From Thiomicrorhabdus sp. 6S3-12 (GTDB lineage Bacteria; Pseudomonadota; Gammaproteobacteria; Thiomicrospirales; Thiomicrospiraceae), in assembly GCF_017571475.1 (NCBI RefSeq), contig NZ_JAGETW010000001.1, positions 124,001 through 188,000 of the forward strand: DNA of 64,000 nt, in the 5' to 3' direction. The notes under the pieces were generated by a model. The model searched no databases. It was not told the DNA's origin and saw only the letters and a program-made list of their open reading frames with translations. This document shows, piece by piece, positions 23,545 to 61,278 of the stretch. The position numbers and the translations under genes are program-made. Within the stretch, counting starts at the first letter, position 1, and every line of letters starts with the position of its first letter.

Positions 23545-23620
23545 TGGCTCCCCAAGCTGGACTCGAACCAGCGACATACGGATTAACAGTCCGGTGTTCT
23601 ACCAACTGAACTATTGGGGA
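23545..23620 (-). tRNA. tRNA-Asn(GTT), copy 2
   Basis: 76 nt, minus strand, encoded CCA, anticodon GTT, with a tRNA body identical to the copy at 17055-17130. Confidence 0.98.
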
Positions 23621-23821: not shown

Positions 23822-23850
23822 TTGACAGCACAATAGAATAAAAATTATAT
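23822..23850 (+). promoter_or_regulatory. probable promoter of the TonB/FecCD/LLM operon
   Basis: A perfect -35 TTGACA (23822-23827) is followed after 17 bases by TTATAT (23845-23850). Transcription would start at about 23857, where the ModE-like operator begins, so a bound regulator would sit on the start site. Confidence 0.6.
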
Positions 23851-23856
23851 TATGCA

Positions 23857-23884
23857 ACCGTTATATACAAAGTGAAATAACGAT
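23857..23884 (+). promoter_or_regulatory. ModE-like operator 1
   Basis: The arms CGTTAT and ATAACG are separated by 12 bases, the same spacing as in the E. coli modA operator as recalled. Against the recalled consensus ATCGNTATATA-N6-TATATAACGAT, the left half ACCGTTATATA differs at one position and the right half GAAATAACGAT at two. It lies immediately downstream of the -10 box, which suggests repression. Confidence 0.65.
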
Positions 23885-23907
23885 TATCTCTCGTATTTAG
23901 AGAATAA

Positions 23908-23937
23908 AAAGCCCGATTACTGCATTCGGGCTTTTTT
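23908..23937 (+). terminator. intrinsic terminator inside the operon leader
   Basis: The stem AAAGCCCGA/TCGGGCTTT with a nine-base loop and six T residues lies between the promoter and the first gene on the coding strand. It must be read through to express the operon, so it is either an attenuator or the end of a separate short RNA of about 80 nt. Confidence 0.75.
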
Positions 23938-23943
23938 ACAGCA

Positions 23944-23971
23944 ATCGTTATATACAAAGATAAACATTGAA
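23944..23971 (+). promoter_or_regulatory. ModE-like half operator 2
   Basis: The left half ATCGTTATATA matches the recalled ModE half-site perfectly, and CGTTATATACAAAG repeats operator 1 exactly over 14 bases. The right half is degenerate. It lies between the leader terminator and the receptor gene start. Confidence 0.4.
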
Positions 23972-23987
23972 TCTGGCGAGCACAATT

Positions 23988-26021
23988 ATGACTAGACCCC
24001 CATTTACCAAAAGCGCCTTACAGCATGCGCTTCTTATCGCGAGCTCTTTTGCCTTGGCCGGCGCGGCTCACGCACAGGACAACGTTTTCAAACTGGGTGA
24101 AATCACCGTCCTGCAACCCGACGAATCCACAACTTATTCTTCCGTCGACAGCGAAGTCGCTCAGGAAAAAGGCGACAGCAATGTCGGAGAAGCGATTCAG
24201 GACGTTCCCGGTGCCACCTTGCAGGTTGGCGGCCGCCGTGCCGAAACCCGCGCCAATATCCGCGGCTTTGATTCACGGCAGATCACTCTGAATCTGGACG
24301 GCATCCCGATCTATGTCCCTTACGACGGCAATATCGACCTGAGTCGCTTTCTGCTTGGCGATCTGAGTCAGATCGAAGTCACCAAAAGCCTGGGGTCGAT
24401 TCTTGAAGGCCCGAACAATATGGGCGGCTCGATCAATCTGGTGACCCGACGACCGAACGCGGATTTCGAAGGCGATATCAATGCCTCGATCGAAGGCGGG
24501 CGCGAAGGCGTCTTCAAACAGACCCAAAATGCACGGATCGGCGTCATCATTAACGAAAACTTTTATTTTCAAGGCGGAGTCAGCGCCGTGCAGGCAGACA
24601 ATTTTCCGCTGTCCGACGATTTTCAGCCGCAGGATAACGCAGGCACCATCTATCAGCCGGAAGGCGAACGCTTAAGATCCGGAAACGAAAACCTCAGCGC
24701 CAATTTAAAGCTTGGTTATACGCCGAACAGTCATGACGAATACACTTTGAGTTACTATCAGACCGAAGGTTCCAAGGAATCCAGTCCTTATGCCGGCACT
24801 CAGGATACCGTCCGCTACTGGGACTGGCCGAAATGGGATAAACAGAGCCTGTATTATGTCGGTTACACTCAGTTCGGCGTCAGCGACAATCCGGGCTATC
24901 TGAAAACCCGTCTTTTTTACGACAAGTTCGACAATGCCCTCAACTCCTATGATGACGATCAGTACAACAGCGTCACCAAGAAATACGCTTTCCGCTCGCA
25001 GTACAACGATTACAGTGTCGGCGGCTCGTTGGAAGCGGCTGTACCGGTCGATAACCACCTTCTCAAAACCGCACTTTTGCTGAAAAAGGACGAACATAAA
25101 GAGCGCGACCTGGATTCAGACATACAAGATCTGGATAACAGCTGGCGGACCTTCCAGTCGGAAACCGCCAGTCTCGGCTTTGAGGATCGAATCCGCATTA
25201 CACCTCAAACCCAATTCACACTGGGATACCGGCTTGACCACTACAAGCTGACGAAGGCCGACGACAACGACGATGCCACGCAACCGCAAGGCGCTCAACA
25301 ACAGAGCAACTGGCAGATGAAACTCGACCACAATTTGGGCACACAGCGAATTCAGGCCGGAATCTCGCTGAAATCGCGTTTTCCGAATATGAAAGATCAG
25401 GTCTCCTATCGTCTCGGACAGGCCATTCCAAATCTGAATCTGCAGGCGGAAAAAGCACTGCATTATGAGCTGGCACTGCTGGGAGAGCTGAATACCTTGC
25501 GCTACCGCGCCAACGCCTTCTATGCGTCGATTCAGGATGCCATCGAAACCGTGACCGTGACCGTGACCAGCGACCAGTGCGGCGGCACTACCTGCGATCA
25601 GAACCAGAATGTCGGTACCGCTTCCTCCAAAGGGTTTGAATTGCTGGCGAGCCTTCCGCTCGGCACGACGCTTGACCTTAGTCTCAGCTATAGCCGCCTG
25701 ATTCGCAACTATGCGGATGACGCCATTTTTGCGACCTATGCCCCGGAACACAGCGCTAATTTGGGTCTGGACTGGTTCGTCAGCACCGACTGGCATCTGG
25801 GTCTGGACGGGCATTATCAGTCCGACAGCGAAACCCGCTTTGACGGCAGTCGACCGACGGATGGCTTCAGCCTGTGGGATATCCGCGCCCACTACCGGAT
25901 CAATAAAGCATGGCATGCCGACTTTGCGCTCAAAAACGTGCTCGACACCGATTACGAAATTGCCGAAGGCGATCCGATGCCGGGCCGTACCCTTTGGGCG
26001 AATATCCAATATCAGTTCTAA
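23988..26021 (+). CDS. TonB-dependent outer-membrane receptor
   Basis: Outer-membrane gated porin that would import a metal or oxyanion complex using TonB. The ATG at 23988 (GGCGAG eight bases upstream) gives a 677-residue precursor with signal peptide MTRPPFTKSALQHALLIASS...AHA and mature start QDN. A TonB-box-like EITVL follows, then the plug (VGEAIQDVPGATLQVGGRRAETRANIRGFDSRQITLNLDGIP) and a beta-barrel ending in the aromatic signal ...TLWANIQYQF. The last residue Phe is the normal outer-membrane signature. It is the first gene of an operon with binding protein, LLM enzyme, permease and ATPase. The substrate is not readable from the protein; the ModE-like sites suggest molybdate or tungstate. 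Confidence 0.92.
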   Translation: MTRPPFTKSALQHALLIASSFALAGAAHAQDNVFKLGEITVLQPDESTTYSSVDSEVAQEKGDSNVGEAIQDVPGATLQVGGRRAETRANIRGFDSRQITLNLDGIPIYVPYDGNIDLSRFLLGDLSQIEVTKSLGSILEGPNNMGGSINLVTRRPNADFEGDINASIEGGREGVFKQTQNARIGVIINENFYFQGGVSAVQADNFPLSDDFQPQDNAGTIYQPEGERLRSGNENLSANLKLGYTPNSHDEYTLSYYQTEGSKESSPYAGTQDTVRYWDWPKWDKQSLYYVGYTQFGVSDNPGYLKTRLFYDKFDNALNSYDDDQYNSVTKKYAFRSQYNDYSVGGSLEAAVPVDNHLLKTALLLKKDEHKERDLDSDIQDLDNSWRTFQSETASLGFEDRIRITPQTQFTLGYRLDHYKLTKADDNDDATQPQGAQQQSNWQMKLDHNLGTQRIQAGISLKSRFPNMKDQVSYRLGQAIPNLNLQAEKALHYELALLGELNTLRYRANAFYASIQDAIETVTVTVTSDQCGGTTCDQNQNVGTASSKGFELLASLPLGTTLDLSLSYSRLIRNYADDAIFATYAPEHSANLGLDWFVSTDWHLGLDGHYQSDSETRFDGSRPTDGFSLWDIRAHYRINKAWHADFALKNVLDTDYEIAEGDPMPGRTLWANIQYQF

Positions 26022-26037
26022 TGCGGGAGTGATTTAA

Positions 26038-27180
26038 ATGTCTGCATACTCTTTTTTTCTAAGACAAGTCAAACCGCATAACATGCCTCACCGTAAGGAT
26101 CTGCATCCTAGTTTTTTACGGTTTTTCAAAAGCGGAGTGATAACGACTTTAGTATGTCTTGGGCTTTTGCAGAATACACAAGCCCTGAGCGCTCAAACCG
26201 CTCAGCCGACACCTAAAAACTGTACGGTCGATGCCGAAGCTGCGCGAGTCTACGGCGCCAACCCGATCGTGACCTATCTTCTGGTCGCCATGGCGCCGGA
26301 AAAACTGATCGGCTGGAATTTTCCGCCGGCACCGCAGGCAAAAAACGTGTTTGCGGATGAACTGATGGACAAACCGATTATCGGCGGCTGGTTCGGACAG
26401 GGACGGACACCGAACATGGAAGTTTTGCTGGCCAGCAAACCGGATCTGATCGTCATGTCCGGCGCCATGGTGCATGCCAACCGTCAGGCCATGTTGCAGA
26501 AACTCGGCATTCCTGTCTGCAATCTGCATCTGGACACTCTTGAAGATTACCCGCAAGACCTGAGAAACCTCGGTAAATGGCTCGGCAAAACCGAACGCGG
26601 CGAAATGCTGGCACAAAAATTCGCACAGCTGCTGCAACGTCAGAAACGCCTGAAAGCACTTTTGCAACAGCGCAACGTCACACCGAAAACCGTTTATTAC
26701 GCCGAAGACCCGAATGGTCTGGCGACCGAATGCCGTGGTTCGATTCATGCCGAGACCCTGCCTTGGGCAGGTGCCTTGAATCCGCATCAGTGCCCGGCAG
26801 ATCAGGGTAAATACTCGCGTTTCGGCAAAGTCGAAATCAATATCGAACAACTGCTGAAATACGATCCGGATGCGATCGTCACCCAGGAAAAAGCTTTCTA
26901 CGACAAAGTTTATCTGATGCCCGCTTGGCAAGGTCTGCAAGCGGTGCGCAACAAGCTGATCTTTCTGGCGCCGCAAACTCCTTTCCGCTGGCTGGATCGC
27001 CCGCCTTCCTTTATGCGCATTCTGGCCGCACAGTGGCTGATGCAGAAACTCTATCCGCAGGTGCGCGAAATTGCCGAACTGGATACTGTCGCCGAGACGC
27101 AGGAAATTTTCCAACTCTTTTTTCAAACCGCTTTAAGCCGCGAACAGGCGCAATCGATTTTACAGGGGAATACATTATGA
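26038..27180 (+). CDS. periplasmic substrate-binding protein (FecB/BtuF class, MolA-like candidate)
   Basis: Class III solute-binding protein feeding the FecCD permease. The 380 residues begin with a signal sequence region (hydrophobic core about residues 34-46) and a mature part after Ala-Gln. The family pattern RVYGANPIVTYLLVAMAPEKLIGWNF, PIIGGWFGQGRTPNMEVLLASKPDLIV and the C-terminal RWLDRPPSFMRILAAQWL place it in the group that includes metal-chelate and H. influenzae MolA-type binding proteins. RBS GGGAGTG precedes the ATG, 16 bases after the receptor stop. The stop overlaps the LLM gene start (ATGA). Confidence 0.88.
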   Translation: MSAYSFFLRQVKPHNMPHRKDLHPSFLRFFKSGVITTLVCLGLLQNTQALSAQTAQPTPKNCTVDAEAARVYGANPIVTYLLVAMAPEKLIGWNFPPAPQAKNVFADELMDKPIIGGWFGQGRTPNMEVLLASKPDLIVMSGAMVHANRQAMLQKLGIPVCNLHLDTLEDYPQDLRNLGKWLGKTERGEMLAQKFAQLLQRQKRLKALLQQRNVTPKTVYYAEDPNGLATECRGSIHAETLPWAGALNPHQCPADQGKYSRFGKVEINIEQLLKYDPDAIVTQEKAFYDKVYLMPAWQGLQAVRNKLIFLAPQTPFRWLDRPPSFMRILAAQWLMQKLYPQVREIAELDTVAETQEIFQLFFQTALSREQAQSILQGNTL

Positions 27181-28190
27181 AAGCGAATCTGAAACTTCGC
27201 CCACAACTGGGTGTCATGCTGCATATTACTCCGGAACTGAATCAGACTCCGCAAGCGACCTACAGCGCTTTTACCGACCTGGTACGCAAACTGGACGCCA
27301 TCGGTTTCGACAATGCCTGGGTGACGGAACATCACTTTAACGACATGAGCCTGACTCCGGCACCACTGAACCTGATCGGTCACTTTCTGGGTAAAACCGA
27401 AAACATCAAAATCGGCTGCGCCGCACTTTTGCTCGGATTCCACAATCCGATCGAAGTTGCCGAACAGCTGGCGGTACTGCAGTCTCTCTATCCGCACAGG
27501 ATTTTATGCGGGTTTGCCAAGGGAGGTCCTTTCGAATCGCAAAACGCCGCCTTTAAAGCGGACAAGGAAATAAGCCGCGAACGGATGAATGAAGCTTTGC
27601 CGGCGATAATGCAATTATGGAACAGCGGCACACCGCAGAGCCATCAAGGCCGGCATTACCAGTGGGAAAATATTACTCTGCAGCCACGTTGCGATATGCA
27701 CTCACAGCAGTTATTTGTCGCCACCGGCGACGAACAGACGGTACAGATGGCGGCACAAAACGGATTGGGACTGATGAGCGCGCAGTTCTGGGACAGCGAC
27801 AAGATCGACCAGCAGATCAAACTGTATACACGCTTCGCGCAACATGCTCCTAATATGATGGTGGCACGCGGTCTGTTTATCGATGACAACCCTTCGGTCG
27901 CCAGACAGATGGCGCTGGAACATATCGAACTTTTCCGCGAAGAGAAATCCAAACACTGGGGCAAGCACCCCGGACCTATGGCAAAACTCGACCCAGAAGC
28001 GCTTTTGAGTCGCATGTTGTGCGGTTCGCCCGAGCAGGTTCGACAGCAGCTGCAACGACTGCTTAGAATGGGTGTTAAACATCTTGCGCTCAACCCCCTG
28101 ACCCACAGCCATCAGGTCCGTTTTCAACAGCTGCATTGGTTCAAGGATGAAATCTGGCAACCCTTAATGGCGCAAAGCGATGCGGCCTGA
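27177..28190 (+). CDS. LLM-class flavin-dependent monooxygenase
   Basis: A cytoplasmic bacterial-luciferase-like TIM barrel using reduced flavin and O2. The start ATG at 27177 overlaps the binding-protein stop by four bases, giving 337 residues. Family features are LDAIGFDNAWVTEHHFND, a segment IGCAALLLGFHNPIEVAEQLAVLQSLYPHRILCGFAKG, and FVATGDEQTVQMAAQNGLGLMS. No signal peptide. It sits in the middle of the transport operon (overlapping the permease gene by 11 bases), so it must be made together with the importer. Family members include the chelate-degrading NTA and EDTA monooxygenases and alkanesulfonate monooxygenase; action on an imported ligand is inference. Confidence 0.9.
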   Translation: MKANLKLRPQLGVMLHITPELNQTPQATYSAFTDLVRKLDAIGFDNAWVTEHHFNDMSLTPAPLNLIGHFLGKTENIKIGCAALLLGFHNPIEVAEQLAVLQSLYPHRILCGFAKGGPFESQNAAFKADKEISRERMNEALPAIMQLWNSGTPQSHQGRHYQWENITLQPRCDMHSQQLFVATGDEQTVQMAAQNGLGLMSAQFWDSDKIDQQIKLYTRFAQHAPNMMVARGLFIDDNPSVARQMALEHIELFREEKSKHWGKHPGPMAKLDPEALLSRMLCGSPEQVRQQLQRLLRMGVKHLALNPLTHSHQVRFQQLHWFKDEIWQPLMAQSDAA

Positions 28191-29229
28191 TCTGTATCAC
28201 CCGAAAGCCTGCTGCGGCATTTTTTCCGGCGCGCAGATATTACTGCTACTGAGCCTGATTCTGCTCGCAACCGCTGGGCTCTCTTTAAGCTTGGGGCGTT
28301 ACGACTTTGCACCTTTAGGCAGTCTGGCCGAATTGCTTAAATACTGGGGGCTGATCGACGGTGCAGCCGACCCGATGATAACCAGTATCCTGCTTGATGT
28401 CCGTCTACCACGCATTGCGGCGGCGATTATGATCGGTTCGGCTCTGGCAATCAGCGGCGCGGCCTTTCAGGCGCTGTTTATGAATCCGCTGGTCTCCCCC
28501 GGAATACTCGGCGTACTCTCCGGCGCGGCCTTTGGCGCATCGCTGGGTATTTTGCTCTCCGAACAGATCTGGGTCATGCAGCTGCTGACGTTCGTCTTCG
28601 GTTTACTGGCGGTGTTCATCGCCTTAATGCTGGCCAAAGGCGAACTGAAGCAGAACATGATTATTCTGGTACTCGGCGGCATGATTACCGGTGCGCTTTT
28701 CAGCGCCTTTCTTTCGATTATCAAATATGTCGCGGACCCCTACAGCAAACTGCCGGCAATCACTTACTGGCTTATGGGATCACTGGCGAATGTAAATGGT
28801 GAATTACTTCTCTGGCTGCTGCCGTTTGTTGTGCTCGGACTGCTGATTCTCAGTCTGCACGGTCATGTCCTGAATGTACTCAGTCTCGGGGACGATGAAG
28901 CGCGCAGTCTCGGAGTGAATGTCGAGCGTAAACGCCTTCTGGTGATCGTTATTGCAACGTTCTTAAGCGCTCTGACAGTGACGCTTGGCGGCATGATCGG
29001 CTGGGTCGGTTTAGTCATTCCACATATCGTTCGCCTGCTGCTCGGAGCTGACAATCGACTGCTTCTGCCGGCCTCGGCTCTGCTCGGTGCCATCTATCTT
29101 CTGGTGGTCGACAATCTGGCCAGAATGGCGCTGAGCATCGAAATCCCGATCGGGATTTTGACGGCGCTGATCGGACTGCCGGTCTTTGCCTGGGCACTGA
29201 AAAACGCCAAAAAAGGCTGGCAAAACTAG
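28180..29229 (+). CDS. FecCD-type ABC transporter permease
   Basis: Inner-membrane permease of the BtuC/FecCD/MolB class, 349 residues with about ten membrane helices. The signature DVRLPRIAAAIMIGSALAISGAAFQALFMNPLVSPGILG is near residues 68-105, and GMIGWVGLVIPHIVRLLLGADNR and LTALIGLPVFAWAL follow near the C-terminus. It starts inside the LLM gene and is 16 bases before the ATPase gene. A single permease gene suggests a homodimer. Confidence 0.95.
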   Translation: MRPDLYHPKACCGIFSGAQILLLLSLILLATAGLSLSLGRYDFAPLGSLAELLKYWGLIDGAADPMITSILLDVRLPRIAAAIMIGSALAISGAAFQALFMNPLVSPGILGVLSGAAFGASLGILLSEQIWVMQLLTFVFGLLAVFIALMLAKGELKQNMIILVLGGMITGALFSAFLSIIKYVADPYSKLPAITYWLMGSLANVNGELLLWLLPFVVLGLLILSLHGHVLNVLSLGDDEARSLGVNVERKRLLVIVIATFLSALTVTLGGMIGWVGLVIPHIVRLLLGADNRLLLPASALLGAIYLLVVDNLARMALSIEIPIGILTALIGLPVFAWALKNAKKGWQN

Positions 29230-29245
29230 CTTTGGAGGAGAAGTA

Positions 29246-30085
29246 ATGAAATTCTTTAACCGGCAACTTAATGTTCATCGCTCGGAATGGCCGCACAGTT
29301 CGGCGCCAGCAATACAGAATCAAGCGAGCAGCCCGCTCAGTCCCCTGCTGGTGGCTGACGGGTTAGCGGCTCAACAGGGTTGCAAAAGCATATTTTCGGA
29401 AATTGCTTTGCACTTAAATGCCGGTGAGGTCGTGGCGCTGTTGGGGCCGAACGGCTGCGGCAAAACTACGCTGCTGCGCACTTTGCTTGGATTTCATCCG
29501 AAAAGCGCCGGCCGGGTTGAGATTAACGGTCGGGACAGCTCGCAGCTGAAAGCCGAACAGATTGCGCAATCGATCAGCTATGTTCCACAATACCATCGCA
29601 CGGCGTTCGGCTACCCGGTCATCGACATGGTACTTATGGCCACTCGCGGTGCAAAGGCCTCATGGATCAAATCCTCGGCCGAGCAATACGACACGGCAAT
29701 AGAGGCTCTGAAATGGCTGAATATCGAGCATCTGGCGCACCGTCCCTATACCGAACTCTCCGGCGGACAACGACAGATGGTACTGATCGCACGCGCTTTT
29801 GCCCAGAACACGCCGCTGATTATGATGGACGAACCGACCAACGGACTCGACTACGGCAACCAGATTAAGCTGCTGGAGAAAATCACTCAGTTGAAAATAG
29901 CCGGGCGTACGGTGTTGTTTACCACGCATCATCCGGAACACGCCATCGGCAGTGCCTGTCGCGCCATTACGATGTATAACGGCCGCATACTGAAAAACGG
30001 CGCTCCCAAGGAGATTTTACAACGCCATGACATTCAACATCTGTACCAACTCTCGCCGAATCAGCTTCCGGCGAACACCTTTTAA
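29246..30085 (+). CDS. ABC transporter ATP-binding protein (FepC/BtuD/MolC class)
   Basis: Cytoplasmic ATPase of the importer, 279 residues. Walker A GPNGCGKTT, Q-loop around SYVPQYH, signature LSGGQRQMV, Walker B PLIMMDEPTNGLD and the switch His in FTTHHPEHA are all intact. There is an unusual N-terminal extension of about 35 residues before the ATPase core. A strong RBS GGAGGAG lies seven bases before the ATG. It is the last gene of the operon, ended by the terminator at 30094. Confidence 0.95.
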   Translation: MKFFNRQLNVHRSEWPHSSAPAIQNQASSPLSPLLVADGLAAQQGCKSIFSEIALHLNAGEVVALLGPNGCGKTTLLRTLLGFHPKSAGRVEINGRDSSQLKAEQIAQSISYVPQYHRTAFGYPVIDMVLMATRGAKASWIKSSAEQYDTAIEALKWLNIEHLAHRPYTELSGGQRQMVLIARAFAQNTPLIMMDEPTNGLDYGNQIKLLEKITQLKIAGRTVLFTTHHPEHAIGSACRAITMYNGRILKNGAPKEILQRHDIQHLYQLSPNQLPANTF

Positions 30086-60867: not shown

Positions 60868-61278
60868 TTACAAATCTAAATTGAAAGCTTTAATTTGCTG
60901 GCTGGCCTGCTGTAAAAAGGTTTCAAAATCCTTTTCCATCTTCCGAAAAAGAGCGATCAACGCCTTCCCTTTGGGCGTCAGAACACTCCCTCCTCCAGAT
61001 TTGCCCCCCTGCGCTTTAACCACAAGCGGCTCATCATATATCTCATTCAGTTCGTCGATCAGTTTCCAGGCTTTTTTGTAAGACATGCCCATCTCTTTTG
61101 CCGCGCGGTTCATTGAGCCGAAACGCTCTATATTCTCCAGCAGCTCAACCCGCCCGATACCGACAAAACTGGCATTTTTCCCTTTAATCCAAAAACGCGC
61201 GTGAACCCAATCCGAATAGGCTCCGCCCGGGATCTTTTCACTCGCTTTAATCTCTTCGTCCAGTTTAGGCTGACTCAT
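60868..61278 (-). CDS. single-domain ModE-like winged-helix regulator
   Basis: DNA-binding protein of 136 residues with the ModE N-terminal domain only: RFWIKGKNASFVGIGRVELL, helix-turn-helix SMNRAAKEMGMSYKKAWKLIDELN (residues 55-78) and the wing AQGGKSGGGSVL (89-100). The C-terminal molybdate-binding (TOBE/Mop) domains of E. coli ModE are absent, so if it senses molybdate it does so through another protein or not at all. It could act at the ModE-like sites at 23857 and 23944. It is divergent from the DUF2892 gene. Confidence 0.88.
   Translation of the reverse strand: MSQPKLDEEIKASEKIPGGAYSDWVHARFWIKGKNASFVGIGRVELLENIERFGSMNRAAKEMGMSYKKAWKLIDELNEIYDEPLVVKAQGGKSGGGSVLTPKGKALIALFRKMEKDFETFLQQASQQIKAFNLDL

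Follow-up and report, generated by a model that had tools for sequence, protein, structure and literature searches.

A ModE-type box before a TonB receptor/ABC transporter operon suggests a second molybdenum import route in Thiomicrorhabdus

The stretch of Thiomicrorhabdus DNA that we analysed (the window, 64 kb long) contains an operon of five co-directional genes in which neighbouring genes either overlap or lie 16 bp apart, leaving scant space for internal promoters (Table 1). The original prediction had described a tightly packed set of genes for a TonB receptor, a binding protein, an LLM enzyme, a FecCD permease and an ATPase, and profile searches place all five proteins in those families. 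The MolBCA-type core, i.e., the FecCD permease, ATPase and class III binding protein, is thus complete, and a TonB gene is encoded in the same genome. The LLM enzyme is similar to bacterial luciferase-type monooxygenases, and no signal sequence was apparent in it by eye. None of the operon's proteins reached the cut-off of an NCBIfam equivalog for iron, heme or cobalamin. No named NCBIfam equivalog or subfamily cut-off was reached by the receptor (best score 124.6 vs a cut-off of 323.75) or by the binding protein (37.9 vs 234), and the receptor had zero matches among PDB sequences at E ≤ 1e-10. A tRNA-Asn gene lies directly upstream of the operon promoter on the opposite strand (23545-23620, -).

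Table 1. Features of the operon and its leader (window coordinates)
Feature	Position	Strand	Basis
Sigma-70-type promoter, TTGACA-18-TATATT	23822-23851	+	11/12 consensus bases; inferred +1 near 23858
Box 1, exact CGTTAT-N12-ATAACG palindrome, CGTTATATACAAAGTGAAATAACG	23859-23882	+	Motif search, conservation in orthologues
Terminator-like hairpin and T run, AAAAAGCCCGATTACTGCATTCGGGCTTTTTT	23906-23938	+	Fold, z -4.2
Box 2, ModE-type, distal arm degenerate, CGTTATATACAAAGATAAACATTG	23946-23969	+	15/18 positions
TonB-dependent outer-membrane receptor (plug and barrel)	23988-26021	+	Pfam domains over cut-offs
Class III periplasmic binding protein (Peripla_BP_2)	26038-27180	+	Nearest solved structure 4pag
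LLM-class flavin-dependent enzyme (Bac_luciferase)	27177-28190	+	Profile families
FecCD-type permease	28180-29229	+	Profile family
ABC ATPase	29246-30085	+	Profile family

The predicted model of the binding protein (mean pLDDT 78.9) has as its best fold match 4pag, an ABC solute-binding protein of Sulfurospirillum deleyianum (TM 0.86 by target), with MolA fifth. The protein is a clear family member of 4pag by sequence as well (34% identity, E 2e-57), with a conserved TEC...SxHxE...DRPPSFMR pattern, and this likeness is one of sequence and fold to an uncharacterised binding protein whose ligand is not stated in the records. MolA, a molybdate binder (3psa), is also close in fold but further away in sequence, at about 20% identity (E 3.5e-8 with a single sequence, 8e-13 with a profile). 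Five residues are invariant in the family, Y220, S235, N248, W318 and D320, and they are candidates only for ligand contacts.

In the leader of the operon, the CGTTAT-N12-ATAACG palindrome that had been claimed for the start site is indeed exact and begins near the inferred +1. This box 1 ends 105 bp upstream of the operon, resembles the E. coli-type ModE consensus ATCGNTATATA-N6-TATATANCGAT (PMC545781), and is the sole match in the window at ≤2 mismatches. With uniform bases, about 2 matches at ≤2 mismatches and about 0.004 exact 12-base matches are expected by chance per 64 kb. Taken from the window alone, box 1 would be weak evidence. The hairpin sits between the two boxes, and box 2 starts 8 bp past the T run, its half-identical part being CGTTATATACAAAG (23946-23959). 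An Rfam scan of the leader gave no family at its gathering score, the Moco riboswitch included, so a riboswitch was rejected. An RNA antiterminator was also rejected, as the fold shows no competing helix that would break the terminator.

A search for the site before orthologous operons had been named as a check of the prediction, and there the site is conserved. In a family set of 12 orthologous operons including that of the window (binding proteins 55-100% identical), we scored box strength as an 18-position dyad, taking the best site per locus, and found ModE-type boxes in the receptor leader of all 12, with best sites at 15-18 of 18. The controls were 14 similarly sized regions surrounding paralogous class III binding proteins of the same family, where the best sites score 12-15, with one at 15. 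Beyond the family we scored 28 further loci, four of them from the same genomes, and judged significance by 200 shuffles. In Halothiobacillaceae, Thiomonas, Helicobacteraceae and other epsilonproteobacteria, the operon is preceded by boxes that no shuffle equalled (0/200; L062 and L065, 16/18; L063 and L082, 15/18; L078, 17/18), so the site recurs in beta-, gamma- and epsilonproteobacterial relatives, and a weaker box precedes the operon in Thiomonas bhubaneswarensis (L072, 13/18 at 0.005). Desulfobacterial loci have no boxes except at L068 (14/18 at 0.005) and L083 (13/18 at 0.025), among many tests. In relatives from the desulfobacteria and alphaproteobacteria, either the box or the receptor is missing.

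In the source genome, a gene for a full-length ModE stands immediately before modABC (L054 10930-11760), with HTH_1 and two TOBE/Mop matches and a TIGR00637 score of 82-84 bits, under the cut-off of 98.5. Across the 2.55-Mb genome, TCGTTAT-N12-ATAACGA with ≤1 mismatch occurs at three sites: one at the operon, one in the leader of mop-modD and one at an RND efflux locus. At two mismatches, two boxes lie ahead of moaA-moaD-moaE-moeA, which adjoins a SoxC-type sulfite dehydrogenase. At three mismatches the search returns noise (88 sites vs 136 for the reversed control pattern), and for this reason we used only sites with 0-2 mismatches, apart from one at the modE start site that is noted for its position.

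Gene neighbourhoods in several classes also connect the operon to molybdenum. The operon or its core adjoins modE-modABC in T. bhubaneswarensis, in the epsilonproteobacterium UBA4036 and in Aliarcobacter, and modABC in Halothiobacillus; mod genes adjoin it in T. marina and in genome G050, and in G059 modD is located within it. In alphaproteobacteria the ABC trio stands beside msrPQ or a molbindin gene, with no receptor and no LLM gene. The operons of gamma-, beta- and epsilonproteobacteria contain the LLM gene; at the loci of desulfobacteria, which are anaerobic sulfate reducers, we did not find it. The full set was encountered chiefly among sulfur oxidisers and related microaerobes. Every operon-bearing genome checked also has a modA-like gene, with a doubtful match, below the cut-off, in Desulforhabdus sp. 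TSK, and thus the operon is not the only molybdate route; the idea that it is the sole supplier was rejected on this ground. At some loci a second, divergent TonB receptor, of which Pfam recognises only the Plug domain, is encoded between the receptor and the binding protein (L044 4957-6912; also L045-L047, L050 and L051).

Taken together, we consider it probable (about 0.8) that the operon is controlled by ModE and encodes a TonB-dependent importer with high affinity for molybdenum, as molybdate or a molybdenum complex and possibly also tungstate, which would work as a second system beside ModABC. The proposal of an outer-membrane molybdate/tungstate import operon is supported by the genomic ModE, the sites at mop-modD and moaA, and the modABC, modE and modD neighbours, and it is the regulation and the gene neighbours that point to molybdenum as the substrate. 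When molybdate is plentiful in the cytosol, ModE-molybdate would occupy box 1, which covers the start site, as well as box 2, and turn transcription off; when molybdenum is scarce, the operon would be expressed and supplement ModABC. With energy from TonB, the receptor would bring the ligand across the outer membrane, and the binding protein would hand it to the FecCD/ATPase importer. The cytosolic LLM enzyme would then probably act on what has been imported, for instance through oxidation of a sulfido ligand or of an organic chelator. ModE binding, repression as the direction of control, and this role of the LLM enzyme are steps that we infer. An oxygen-dependent LLM step after import would fit the distribution of the gene, since it was not found at desulfobacterial loci. 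Molybdate is normally admitted by porins, so that a ligand of larger size is hinted at by the presence of a TonB receptor. Thiomolybdate and molybdophore complexes are forms that can lock up molybdenum in sulfidic or metal-poor water, and an importer dedicated to such a complex, with the cytosolic LLM enzyme freeing the metal by oxygen-dependent cleavage, is a speculative and rather unlikely extension of the main reading.

Other explanations can be weighed against the same evidence. That the box stands before the operon by chance is extremely improbable: matches at ≤2 mismatches may be expected in the window alone, but the box is kept in 12/12 family orthologues, at 15-18 of 18 against 12-15 in the matched controls, and recurs in other classes. 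The system could instead import tungstate, which ModE also senses and which both ModE and MolA are established to accept, and regulation alone cannot separate the two oxyanions. We think it unlikely that tungstate is imported rather than molybdate, because the boxes of the source genome accompany the molybdenum genes modABC, mop-modD and moaA, the last beside the SoxC-type sulfite dehydrogenase. It is also conceivable that the cargo is something else, such as a ferric siderophore or another metal, and that the operon is wired to ModE since the need for this cargo varies with the molybdenum supply. Most of what is known about each of the five families concerns the uptake of iron, heme or cobalamin, and there is a precedent in the VnfA-activated TonB receptor/ABC operons of molybdenum-starved Azotobacter vinelandii (PMC9542535). 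Such a cargo nevertheless appears quite unlikely when mod genes repeatedly adjoin the operon in different classes, modD lies inside one operon, and the alphaproteobacterial ABC trio adjoins molbindin or msrP genes.

At least two ModE-type boxes occur in or upstream of the leader in 11 of the 12 family operons, and the second box mostly comes about 6-8 bp after a hairpin that has a T run. When we searched 63 family genomes, plus a genus scan, for a T run followed by a box, we found 35 distinct sites, at modA (14), the receptor (8), mop/modD (3), the mop-linked porin (4) and elsewhere (6). Molybdenum-uptake genes therefore follow 29 of the 35; the search pattern was drawn from the window operon, so the 8 receptor sites are partly circular, which does not apply to the remaining 21. 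A clear hairpin is seen at most of the receptor sites and at the mop/modD sites and is missing at several modA sites, and by folding none of the six sites elsewhere shows one. It is possible that a roadblock assists termination (compare PMC10310618), or that box 2 belongs to a conventional second promoter. For the latter, in which box 2 is the operator of an overlapping promoter and the hairpin merely ends upstream transcripts with no attenuation, we put the chances a little short of even. The modA leaders L112, L113 and L115, which have the same T run and box without a good hairpin, speak for it, whereas a consistent -35/-10 pair around box 2 was not seen by eye. Box 1, here with its promoter, also stands upstream of the hairpin in the window operon and in most receptor leaders, so that transcripts must pass the hairpin, which argues against the hairpin serving upstream transcripts only. 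The box-after-terminator leader is a testable type of metal-dependent control.

Compared with described systems, the operon shares its FecCD-type permease, ATPase and class III binding protein with MolBCA of Haemophilus influenzae (HI1470-1472), which is low-affinity and, as far as described, has no linked TonB receptor or LLM enzyme (PMC7759655). It shares the regulator, operator type and ModD partner with ModABC/ModE, but ModABC belongs to another class of ABC importer and lacks an outer-membrane part. In A. vinelandii, Avin_30860, 39890 and 47130 encode a TonB receptor with ABC components and are expressed without molybdenum (PMC9542535), but under the control of VnfA activators. The T6SS-ModA-IcmP system of Pseudomonas aeruginosa acquires molybdenum via an outer-membrane receptor (PMC9769707); there, a secreted ModA is the carrier, and it is not an operon of the window's kind. 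We thus judge the operon to be new as a variant, MolBCA-like transport with an outer-membrane receptor and an enzyme added under ModE. Our search of the open-access literature, with subscription papers and regulon databases (RegPrecise) outside it, found no description of TonB-dependent molybdate uptake, and a published TonB receptor with a link to ModE is not known to us. Iron is the default assignment for TonB receptors. As predicted for automatic annotation, pipelines call relatives of this system iron transporters, the label 'iron ABC transporter' being given to the alphaproteobacterial ABC trio and to relatives on plasmids. The operon offers evidence, at the level of sequence, for a TonB receptor wired to molybdenum, and it gives knock-out targets in a culturable Thiomicrorhabdus. 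With the full system found mainly in sulfur-cycle bacteria, it is also relevant to sulfidic porewater, where microbial access to molybdenum has been described as unknown (PMC3440940).

Several further observations concern the possible extent of the regulon. In T. marina, mop and a box come first, then an Alginate_exp-type porin and mod genes, and after these a hairpin and box, two receptors and the rest, with the porin family named on the G024 relative. At L088, L089, L090 and L129, mop is followed by a T run and ModE-type box and then by an Alginate_exp-type porin, about 1.5 kb before modA-like genes, and the mop-linked porin is a candidate for a second outer-membrane member of the molybdenum regulon. 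The near-perfect ModE-type palindrome at L055 6821 (G000:C11:516819) lies between a response regulator and the RND efflux operon. Within the window, 60868-61278 (-) encodes a DNA-binding domain of the ModE type that lacks TOBE domains (TIGR00637 97.7 bits vs the cut-off of 98.5), and its product is a candidate second regulator. Downstream of mop, modD of the source genome appears to be split over two frames (L056 4681-5313 and 5339-5731, -), as a pseudogene or through an assembly error. Finally, ModE-type boxes stand about 20-70 bp upstream of soxA at two loci (L046 3107; L048 1198), suggesting that molybdenum may control sulfur oxidation genes.
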